From Rheinheimera pacifica (GTDB taxonomy: Bacteria; Pseudomonadota; Gammaproteobacteria; Enterobacterales; Alteromonadaceae), in NCBI RefSeq assembly GCF_900108485.1, contig NZ_FNXF01000017.1:1-64000 (forward strand): DNA of 64,000 bases. Reading direction: 5' to 3'. How positions within the stretch are numbered: position 1 is the first letter of the stretch; the number at the start of each line of letters is the position of its first letter. Of this stretch, positions 51,466 through 53,540 are shown one piece after another. The position numbers were made by a program, and so were the translations under genes. The notes below the pieces were generated by a model that made no database searches, was not told the origin of the DNA, and saw only the letters and a program-made list of their open reading frames with translations.

Positions 51466-52386
51466 TTACGGCCTGGCTGCCAGCTCCAGAAAACTTATAG
51501 AAGGTACAAAAAACGCTGCACTGAAATCGAAGCGGCTGTAATTCAGCAGTTGATCGTAGCCCTGATTTTGTTCTGCCAGCCCTAATCTACGCTTGAGTTG
51601 TTGTAACAAAACGTCTGCATCTGCACAATAGGTTAATTGCAACATGCCTTGCACCTTTGGTTGTGAAAATGGCATGTTTTGCTGTAAAAAAATGCCCCGG
51701 GCGATATCTGGCTGCACCACTGCATAATGGCTATCAGCCGCCTGTAGTGGCGGGGGAAGGGGTTTACCAGATACTTTATCCATCCCCATTATGTCTTCCT
51801 GCTGCTTAGTGTTCAGTTGCTGCCAGTTACTCAAATCAAAATTAAGACAATGTAAATGCAAGTAACTGCCACCGGCAAAAACCGGCTGCTGTATATGGTC
51901 AACCAAGGCTGCCACACGCTTGGCTTTGCCCTTTGGATTGCATGGTGCATCAATAAAGCCGGTGAGGCTGCGGCCATCAAGGTAACGAAAACCCTGAATA
52001 TGCTCCTGCAGCTCAGCATGGCCCTGTAGCAATTGCAACACCTGTTGCGCGGCAATAAAATTCACATCCAGACGGTCAGAGCGAATTTGAATCAACAGAT
52101 CCAGCGGCACAGGCGCAAGATCAATATCTTCAGCGGGTAAGTCAGGAAAAGGGCTCAGGCCTGCCGGTCTGGCATCAGGATACAGGATATCCCAGTAGTT
52201 ACTGCCGATAGCCACTACACTGGTTAATAATGCCTCAGAAAAATGCACGGCCAAGCGGTCAAATAGCTGTGGTAAACGGGCAAGTTTATGCCTTAGGACC
52301 CGCTCGTGCCCCTCCAGGGCGTTGAAGAATAAATAACTACCATGCAGGTTTGCTTCAGTACAAATTCCCAGTTGCTCTCTGGCCAT
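51466..52386 (-). CDS. Dyp-type peroxidase family protein with altered active-site motifs
   Basis: A 306-residue ferredoxin-like-fold haem protein of the dye-decolourising peroxidase family. The GxxDG motif appears as GFIDAPCNP, keeping the acid D146 but with Ala instead of the second Gly. The proximal haem ligand is probably H220 in ADSHYAVVQ. Where relatives read LRxNMPFG, this protein reads LQQNMPFS, so the distal arginine aligns with Gln235, while the following Asn237 is kept. The haem may bind, but peroxidase activity could be reduced or changed. ATG 52386 with AAGGA is preferred to the ATG at 52413. A perfect palindrome lies 53 bp upstream. No encapsulin gene is nearby. Confidence 0.8.
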   Translation of the reverse strand: MAREQLGICTEANLHGSYLFFNALEGHERVLRHKLARLPQLFDRLAVHFSEALLTSVVAIGSNYWDILYPDARPAGLSPFPDLPAEDIDLAPVPLDLLIQIRSDRLDVNFIAAQQVLQLLQGHAELQEHIQGFRYLDGRSLTGFIDAPCNPKGKAKRVAALVDHIQQPVFAGGSYLHLHCLNFDLSNWQQLNTKQQEDIMGMDKVSGKPLPPPLQAADSHYAVVQPDIARGIFLQQNMPFSQPKVQGMLQLTYCADADVLLQQLKRRLGLAEQNQGYDQLLNYSRFDFSAAFFVPSISFLELAARP

Positions 52387-52438
52387 AACAATCCTTTTTT
52401 TACTACATGCCACAATAACCGCTTTCAGGCCGGCATTC

Positions 52439-52458
52439 TTGTGAGATATATCTCACAA
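52439..52458. promoter_or_regulatory. Perfect 20-bp palindrome upstream of the Dyp peroxidase gene
   Basis: TTGTGAGATATATCTCACAA reads identically on both strands. It lies 53 bp upstream of the peroxidase ATG, where a repressor or activator site would be expected, and about 170 bp before the CsrB-like RNA. The TGTGA/TCACA half-sites are eight bases apart, not the six required for CRP, so another regulator is likely. Confidence 0.6.
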
Positions 52459-52628
52459 AAGAGTAAGTTTAAACGCTATTTCACACAGAATGAAGAAAGA
52501 CAAAAGAACTATATCACTATGAAAAATAAAGCGAAATTACAAAAAATAACACTTTTACAATAATATTACATAGCGCAAATTATAAAAAAGCCATGCCAGA
52601 TTCTCACAATAAAGCGCATACTTACTTC

Positions 52629-52965
52629 GTCAACGGATAAGCAGGCTGACAGGATGTTAGCGTTAATTGCACGAAGCAGTACCTTGCTAGGATAGCACAG
52701 CGGTAGCAGACAGGACATGCTCAGGATGAGCACAGCATTTTCAGATTCTTCACCGGCGCTGAAAATATCAAGGAAGCAAGCAGGACCTCTCAGGATGAGA
52801 GTACATTATCAGGATGATAATGTTTATGGATGACAGGACCAGGCAAGATGCCTTTTGGACACTCCGGGATGGAGCCAGGGATGAAATACTACGGATAGTA
52901 TCGACATGGATGACGAAAAAGGACCTTAGGTGGCCGCGTAGTTTGCGGCCTACCTTCTTCCCTCT
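52629..52965 (+). ncRNA. csrB: CsrB-like regulatory RNA (CsrA-sequestering)
   Basis: A roughly 340-nt stretch without a convincing ORF, packed with about 18 GGA motifs, many as CAGGA. Several sit in loops of perfect hairpins: GCTA-GGA-TAGC (52686-52696), TGCTCA-GGA-TGAGCA (52718-52732), CTCTCA-GGA-TGAGAG (52787-52801), ACATTATCA-GGA-TGATAATG (from 52803) and ATACTA-CGGA-TAGTAT (52886-52901). That is the hallmark of CsrB/CsrC/RsmZ RNAs, which titrate the translational regulator CsrA. The 5' end is estimated from a GTCA...TGAC stem at 52629-52650; the 3' end from the terminal hairpin. The upstream 100 bp are very AT-rich. No clear GacA/UvrY box was found. CsrA is not encoded in this window. Confidence 0.85.
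52928..52960 (+). terminator. Terminal hairpin of the CsrB-like RNA
   Basis: AGGTGGCCGC pairs with GCGGCCTACCT (core GGCCGC 52932-52937 with GCGGCC 52945-52950), one bulge, followed by TTCTTCCCTCT. The U-tract is interrupted by C's, so termination efficiency is uncertain; a run of seven T's occurs at about 52993. Confidence 0.55.
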
Positions 52966-53036
52966 CCGCACTGCTATACCCCTCTCACTTATCTTTTTTT
53001 ATTCAGTGCTTTAACTTTGTTCTGCCGGCTACCCGC

Positions 53037-53468
53037 TTACTGTTTGTCTAACCGTTGCTGGTATACAGAGAAATCCGGCACTTCGCGCTGGTAATCCTGT
53101 TGATAAAGCGAAGAGTGAACAATGAAATCTGCTGTAGCCTGATTACAGGCTACAGGTATATTCCATACCACAGCCAGGCGTATCAGTGCTTTTACATCAG
53201 GATCATGGGGTTGCGATGACAGCGGGTCCCAGAAAAATACCAGCCAGTCAATTTTCTGCTCAGCGATCATAGCACCAATTTGCTGATCGCCCCCCAGCGG
53301 CCCGCTGGCTAAACACTGCACCGGTTGTTGCAACGCTTCAGCCACTAACTTACCGGTAGTGCCGGTTGCAACCAACTGCTTATCAGCAAAAAAATCTTTG
53401 TGCGTAGTCACCCAGCGCAGCAATGCCTGCTTTTTACCGTCATGGGCGACCAGTGCTATGGTTTTCAT
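53037..53468 (-). CDS. mgsA: Methylglyoxal synthase
   Basis: A 143-residue enzyme converting dihydroxyacetone phosphate to methylglyoxal and phosphate. It has IALVAHDGKKQALLRWV, the phosphate-binding ATGTTGKLV, catalytic-region SGPLGGDQQIGAMIAE, and FFWDPLSSQPHDPDVKALIRLAVVWNIPVACN. Slightly shorter than the E. coli protein (152). AAGGAG precedes the ATG. It is a single gene between the CsrB-like RNA and ilvC. Confidence 0.96.
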   Translation of the reverse strand: MKTIALVAHDGKKQALLRWVTTHKDFFADKQLVATGTTGKLVAEALQQPVQCLASGPLGGDQQIGAMIAEQKIDWLVFFWDPLSSQPHDPDVKALIRLAVVWNIPVACNQATADFIVHSSLYQQDYQREVPDFSVYQQRLDKQ

Positions 53469-53540
53469 ATCTATCGTGCTCCTTAATCTGCATTGCTACG
53501 CGTAAGGCGTGAGTGTGGTTAATATATCAGATAAAAAAAA

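Follow-up and report, generated by a model that had tools for sequence, protein, structure and literature searches.

In the CsrB family of regulatory RNAs, pairs of GGA sites hold CsrA dimers. A paper from 2006 is said to have dealt with the prediction of CsrA-regulating RNAs. E. coli CsrB (RF00018) is 369 nt long, carries 22 GGA motifs and is encoded between syd and yqcC. The UvrY box of its gene, TGTGAGAGATCTCTTACA, is centred at -183/-182 and bound by UvrY (PMC4682653). The closest experimentally tested case among those compared is Shewanella oneidensis, whose CsrB1 and CsrB2 are GGA-rich RNAs with a UvrY box whose expression falls by a factor of over 100 when uvrY or barA is mutated (PMC3171408). 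They resemble the RNA described here in the GGA motifs and the box, but are about 420 nt long and form two copies flanking a transposase gene at another location (PMC3171408). In Alteromonas macleodii, a marine copiotroph, the Csr sponge RNAs Aln1a-c were found by transcript data; unlike the present case, the three RNAs derive from one 404-bp intergenic region (PMC5864184). The csrB genes of Vibrio are multiple sibling copies classed by genomic neighbourhood, in which they resemble the Rheinheimera RNAs, but they number three to four and are defined by other gene clusters (PMC6262261).

The window analysed here is a contiguous stretch of 64,000 nucleotides from Rheinheimera pacifica. It contains a gene for a Dyp-type peroxidase (dyp; 51466-52386 if ATG is the start, minus strand; assigned by NCBIfam TIGR01413 and the Pfam Dyp domains) and, according to ORF and family scans, the methylglyoxal synthase gene mgsA (53037-53468, minus strand). 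The gap between the two ORFs measures 623-650 bp, depending on the dyp start, and corresponds to the apparently empty stretch of about 650 bp in which the original prediction had placed a CsrB-like regulatory RNA. That assignment is supported by a full-length RF00018 match, by covarying hairpins and by a UvrY box which lies at the right distance and is nearly exclusive to Csr loci. With a probability of about 95%, the stretch is the gene of a free-standing CsrB-family sRNA of about 335 nt that would be transcribed from the plus strand, activated by BarA-UvrY and sequester CsrA. Its homologies characterize the RNA as a diverged but real CsrB-type sponge of the well-known kind and not as a new kind of system. 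It falls into the length class of E. coli CsrB (334 versus 369 nt) with a similar number of GGA motifs (18 versus 22), and differs from it in its location beside dyp-argR.

Positions 52627-52962 contain exactly 18 GGA in 336 nt, 10 AGGA and 7 CAGGA among them. In dinucleotide-preserving shuffles of this sequence the mean count was 9.6 and the maximum 16, and none of 2000 shuffles reached 18. Seven GGA are located in hairpin loops whose stems are perfect over 4 bp or more, a number likewise reached by none of 2000 shuffles (mean 0.73). These values confirmed the roughly 18 GGA in 340 nt, at least five of them in loops of perfect inverted repeats, that had been noticed before; the GGA hairpins were also recovered, with stems of 3-8 bp as placed here instead of 4-9 bp. 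The next densest separate 336-nt stretch in the window has 9 GGA on the plus strand and 10 on the minus strand. When 25 aligned sequences, the R. pacifica sequence included, were compared with their own shuffles, the GGA count was reached by 0 of 200 shuffles in 24 sequences and by 1 of 200 in one. The corresponding test of GGA hairpins yielded 0 of 200 in 22 sequences and 1, 10 and 8 of 200 in the remaining three. Many GGA motifs with several in hairpin loops, as expected of a Csr/Rsm sponge, are thus present in 52627-52962.

The covariance-model search proposed as a check of the original prediction returned a full-length match to RF00018 (CsrB/RsmB) at 52627-52962, which spans model positions 1-356 of 356 with 38.4 bits and an E-value of 8.5e-9 (1101 bases searched, threshold lifted). 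The score stays below the Rfam gathering score, the curated cut-off, of 71 bits; the RNA therefore lacks strict Rfam membership, and a scan of the whole 64-kb window at the curated thresholds yielded no match. Since the curated score is a reporting limit and not a biological property, the alignment still argues for homology over the full length of the model. With a permissive E-value of 10, the whole genome contains two places only, the window locus and a weaker second one on contig C32 (25.9 bits). A control search of 14 well-known genomes gave matches in 8 at E ≤ 10, several of them in genomes not expected to have CsrB, and permissive matches alone therefore mean little. At E ≤ 0.01, E. coli was the only one of the 14 controls with a match. 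The R. pacifica genome and 29 of 30 relatives of the same genus matched at E ≤ 0.01, where stricter filters were used; the locus of the remaining relative, G006, aligns by DNA. The Rfam cut-off was exceeded in none of these 31 genomes, and threshold-based annotation would therefore miss the RNA genus-wide.

Upstream of the GGA-rich stretch lies an 18-bp palindrome of the UvrY/GacA type, TGTGAGATATATCTCACA (52440-52457), the presumed upstream activating site. Its centre precedes the predicted transcription start by 180 bp if +1 is the G at 52629, and a distance of 182 bp was measured in the E. coli csrB record. The degenerate UvrY-type pattern TGTRAGNNATNNCTYACA has exactly two sites in the 4.46-Mb genome, whereas the reversed control has none. 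Both sites are at Csr RNA loci, one at the window locus and one upstream of a second, CsrC-like RNA. The 31 genomes of the genus contain 49 distinct sites, of which 29 are within 600 bp of a window-type locus, 19 at a CsrC-like locus and 1 elsewhere. The exact box at neither Csr RNA locus is found at G009:C10:436577-436594. At the dyp-side locus the pattern is present in 29 of the 31 genomes; G010 deviates by one mismatch, and the box was not found at the dyp-side locus of G019. Sequence and position together identify the palindrome as a predicted UvrY/GacA binding site upstream of the promoter, as in other Csr sponge genes. The UvrY box and the GGA hairpins are a sharper criterion here than the model score.

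Several further elements are conserved between the box and the RNA, all on the plus strand. The extension GTAAGTTTAAACGCTATTT (52463-52481), conserved across 29 loci, is possibly an extra half-site, in analogy to TGTAGGAGA, which follows the csrB box of E. coli at a distance of 5 bp (PMC4682653). A second element, TTTACAATAATATTACA (52554-52570, about -75 to -59), is conserved through the genus and consists of two TTACA units in tandem, 11 bp apart. E. coli csrB has two copies of TGTAAG between -45 and -29, likewise spaced with an 11-bp period but oriented the opposite way to the TTACA units. It is a guess that the TTACA tandem provides a second UvrY contact. The genome has one exact copy of TTTACAATAATATTACA and two more places with 2 mismatches, and the reversed control yielded one; hence, no regulon can be read from this element. 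Conservation also points to a putative -10-like CATACT (52617-52622; CATAAT in many relatives), and a sigma-70 scan detected no promoter hexamers at the expected places, CATACT included. The RNA, with its RF00018 match and 18 GGA, is placed at 52629-52962, its 5' end on the basis of TTCGTCAACGG, which was likened to TTCGTCGACAGG of E. coli csrB, where the annotated +1 is a G; the surroundings of +1 are similar in both. By this analogy, we infer a transcription start near the G of GTCAACGG and a predicted plus-strand RNA of about 335 nt.

The DNA, RF00018 and box searches covered 60 genomes: besides R. pacifica itself, these comprise 30 congeners, 5 genomes from the same family and 24 from the order. 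With 52420-52990 as query, a DNA search at E ≤ 0.001 detected 31 of the 60, i.e. 30 of the 31 genomes of the genus and one other; in G003, G016, G023, G010 and G005 short pieces alone, the box or the terminal hairpin, match by DNA. When the DNA and RF00018 tests are taken together, the RNA is located beside dyp in 31 of 31 genomes of the genus (29 loci plus G019 and G005). The gene argR follows beyond dyp in 29 of the 31; in G028 and G008 the retrieved flank did not reach that far. Of 29 loci, 8 have mgsA on the far side from dyp within a flank of about 1.5 kb, 3 have ilvC but no mgsA, and 18 have neither. An ammonium transporter gene, family-scanned in one case, is the next gene in G005, G010 and G019 (L117, L118 and L122). 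In 14 genomes from other genera (L041-L053 and L059), neither dyp nor argR nor mgsA was matched within 1.5 kb of the best CsrB match. In three other-genus genomes (G032, G033 and G040) the best CsrB match adjoins a GNAT-like gene, with GNAT scores under the cut-off in two. Algicola (L040) shares the argR-dyp arrangement, and no CsrB match was obtained there at E 0.1 in the 6.9 kb examined. As far as we looked, the dyp-side position appears to be specific to the genus within the genomes examined, and the mgsA neighbour is uninformative. The original suggestion of a lineage-specific location between dyp and mgsA thus held for the dyp side and failed for the mgsA side. In a genome of another family of the order, two CsrB matches are neighbours (L121:1389-2466), and the interval separating them contains the identical palindrome TGTGAGATATATCTCACA.

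Leaders of mRNAs often carry CsrA sites. The GGA-rich stretch is close to two genes and could in principle be a leader or 3' element of the dyp or mgsA mRNA with CsrA sites and not a free-standing sRNA. This is very improbable, as the RNA is on the plus strand, whereas dyp and mgsA are both on the minus strand; it leads neither gene and is convergent towards mgsA. Furthermore, it comes with an activator-type box and a start-like site of its own and with a terminal hairpin, and it stays in place while the gene on its 3' side changes between mgsA, ilvC and, in three genomes, the ammonium transporter gene. A leader or 3' element of either gene was discarded on account of the strand and the changing neighbours.

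The structure of the presumed free-standing CsrB-type RNA was examined with 12 helices, which were read off the RNA of the window and then placed on an alignment of 25 sequences (A1, own sequence included). This alignment excludes 4 of the 29 loci in which the layout of the RNA differs (L028-L031), and G005 and G019 are also not part of it. Standard pairs are formed in 87.4% of the cells. Changes on both sides occurred in 32 of 63 pairs and in 11 of 12 helices, compared to a mean of 14.5 in shuffles that ignore kinship, none of 500 of which reached 32. Six slid controls of the helix set were 28-50% paired with 6-16 pairs changed on both sides, a comparison biased in favour of the actual placement because the helices were taken from the window's own RNA. 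RNAalifold, which derives its own structure from the alignment, proposed 47 pairs, of which 22 show compensatory changes; helices 5, 7 and 11 are absent from its prediction. Retention of the GGA hairpins in relatives, named beforehand as a check, was therefore found in the 25-sequence alignment, with compensatory changes, and the RNA has the conserved hairpin structure of a Csr/Rsm sponge. The fold energy of the whole RNA was unremarkable against shuffles (z -0.85; 21 of 100 shuffles folded at least as well), and not all local hairpins appear in the single-sequence minimum-energy fold. A sponge is expected to have small local hairpins, as seen here, which makes total energy a poor test; it gives no support.

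All hairpins are on the plus strand. Three of the stems surround an AGGA loop and covary alike: hairpin 1 (CUGAC-AGGAU-GUUAG, 52646-52660; 91.9% of cells paired), hairpin 4 (UGCUC-AGGAU-GAGCA, 52718-52732) and hairpin 6 (CUCUC-AGGAU-GAGAG, 52787-52801; 92.8% paired) each have 4 of 5 pairs changed on both sides. Hairpin 2 (52667-52679; 3 of 4 pairs changed on both sides, 94% paired) has AGGA in its loop in 19 of the 25 sequences and ACGAA in the other six, R. pacifica and five close relatives. The inner three pairs of hairpin 3 (UGCU-AGGAU-AGCA, 52685-52697) are nearly invariant, and no pair changed on both sides. Hairpin 5 (UUUUCAG...CUGAAAA, 52738-52765) lacks a GGA loop and is absent in part of the genus, with 3 of 7 pairs changed on both sides. 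In hairpin 7 (ACAUUAUC-AGGAU-GAUAAUGU, 52803-52823), 5 of 8 pairs changed on both sides and 71.9% of the cells pair as aligned. The next stems have 4 bp each: hairpin 8 (AGGC-AAGAU-GCCU, 52841-52853; 1 of 4 pairs, 90.2% paired), which has a loop GGA only in some relatives, hairpin 9 (CUCC-GGGAU-GGAG, 52862-52874; 1 of 4 pairs, 100% paired) and hairpin 10 (UACU-ACGGAU-AGUA, 52887-52900; 2 of 4 pairs, 96% paired). Hairpin 11 (52901-52916) consists of 3 bp, UCG...CGA around AUGGA, with 2 of 3 pairs changed on both sides and 85.3% paired. The terminal hairpin at 52928-52955 (87.2% paired) is terminator-like with a weak U-tract. A terminator scan of 52000-53500 reported no site, this hairpin included, and the T-tract is poor; of the terminal hairpin in the original prediction, the hairpin itself was recovered and a terminator site was not.

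The weak T-tract, the score under the Rfam cut-off and the lack of GGA in hairpin 2 of R. pacifica and five close relatives would also fit a pseudogene or decayed CsrB copy, with working copies elsewhere. This is even less probable than an mRNA element, given that pairs changed on both sides in all but one of the helices, that 17-25 GGA per RNA are retained in 29 of 29 loci of the genus, that the box is conserved and that RF00018 at E ≤ 10 offers a single, weaker alternative elsewhere in the genome. A pseudogene was discarded on the strength of covariation and of the span of GGA counts. That the stretch is intergenic DNA rich in GGA by chance, or holds small protein genes, has a negligible probability. 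Two ORFs of 66 and 67 aa do cross it (52814-53014, plus strand; 52768-52971, minus strand), spurious ORFs as originally anticipated, but neither has an NCBIfam or Pfam family at E 0.001. In the part covered by A1, the plus-strand frame is free of stops in 8 of 25 sequences, and in 7 of 25 the minus-strand frame remains in phase with no more than one stop. Small protein genes were discarded on the basis of the family scans and the mostly unconserved frames, and the GGA shuffle tests and covariation argue against chance.

The CsrB-type RNA varies in size within the genus. Eight loci (L019-L026) have in common an insertion, roughly 50 nt long, that adds three AGGA, two or more of them in clear hairpins, and in L020 (1325-1718) this module is repeated once more. 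The repeat suggests that the sponge grew through local duplication. The GGA-rich sequence of L028-L031 runs on past the usual 3' end.

The second site of the UvrY-type pattern in the R. pacifica genome (276166-276183 on contig C32) belongs to a CsrC-like RNA (L002:1299-1790), which was recognized by box, position and a weak model match. The gene order on C32, read from ORFs with YihI assigned by NCBIfam, is engB-like (minus strand), cytochrome c4-like, RNA, methyltransferase-like and yihI. Because E. coli csrC is also located between yihA and yihI, according to the E. coli record, the position identifies the C32 RNA as a positional counterpart of csrC. Like E. coli CsrC (RF00084), it resides in the engB(yihA)-yihI interval, and the Rheinheimera copy has a UvrY box; in contrast to E. 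coli, a cytochrome c4-like and a methyltransferase-like ORF intervene, and the RNA has 8 GGA. A DNA search detected the CsrC-like RNA in all 31 genomes of the genus and in one other (32 of 60). For comparison, 30 of 31 places were fetched. L091 and L105, in which no box turned up, were dropped from the counts, and a second alignment (A2) was restricted to 13 of the remaining 28 for readability. The 28 sequences counted have 7-9 GGA. In R. pacifica the count does not exceed that of shuffles, 532 of 2000 of which have at least 8, and 33 of 2000 attain the 3 GGA hairpins. Its sponge capacity is probably smaller, because it has 8 GGA, no more than shuffles have. A scan with RF00084 matched 1 of 3 relatives with 26.2 bits and E 1.6e-4, under the cut-off of 61. 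A terminator-like hairpin with a T-run was seen by eye, and with TGTAGGA 5 bp downstream of its box the C32 locus resembles E. coli csrB more closely than the window locus does. The case for a CsrC-like RNA thus draws on the box, the position, the terminator-like hairpin, conservation and a weak model match.

The genome also encodes CsrA and BarA/UvrY, the protein partners of a Csr sponge system. Residues 1-48 of the 66-aa CsrA are identical to the solved chain 1y00_A, which we take to be E. coli CsrA, and the protein scores above the NCBIfam cut-off; csrA adjoins an ORF read as alaS-like. CsrA is most likely the protein soaked up by the window RNA. UvrY is 61% identical to E. coli UvrY and reaches 356 bits against the UvrY/SirA/GacA cut-off of 280, and uvrY is followed by an ORF read as UvrC. 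BarA is 38% identical over 1-911 of 918. A candidate for CsrD, the protein that controls CsrB decay in E. coli, is 543 aa long (L112:789-2420) and has CsrD as its best NCBIfam match, with 307 bits against a cut-off of 663, and 26% identity over 199-634 of 646; it has an EAL domain and a GGDEF domain under the cut-off. Judged by sequence and by a link to MshH/CsrD that we presume for its neighbourhood, this EAL protein is a possible MshH/CsrD counterpart. The adjoining ORF has a weak, below-cut-off match to type II secretion L.

Transcription start, UvrY activation, CsrA binding and sequestration are projected onto Rheinheimera from the family members in E. coli, Shewanella and Alteromonas. According to this model, BarA would switch on UvrY, a regulator of the GacA type, by phosphorylation. 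Phosphorylated UvrY would bind the palindrome about 180 bp upstream and trigger transcription of the RNA, as in the family. The RNA would display 18 GGA, about eight of them in the loops of short hairpins, and each molecule would remove several CsrA dimers from mRNA leaders and relieve CsrA control. A second, smaller CsrC-like RNA would operate under the same box. On its other side, the UvrY palindrome is separated by about 54 bp from the presumed start codon of dyp (window:52386-52457). We regard it as an unlikely, speculative scenario that the Rheinheimera CsrB gene settled beside dyp with one UvrY palindrome serving two divergent promoters, for the sponge and the peroxidase, and that a subclade enlarged its sponge by GGA-hairpin modules tuning the CsrA-binding capacity.

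Among the open-access papers searched, none names CsrB together with Rheinheimera; CsrA and Rheinheimera are named together in three, with one or two mentions of each. The window RNA is probably unannotated. This is a practical gap, as threshold-based annotation would leave the CsrB loci of Rheinheimera empty across the genus. With the RNAs described here, Rheinheimera gains a complete-looking Csr circuit of BarA, UvrY, CsrA, a CsrB and a CsrC-like RNA, in which a box nearly absent elsewhere in the genomes of the genus links both RNAs to the response regulator.
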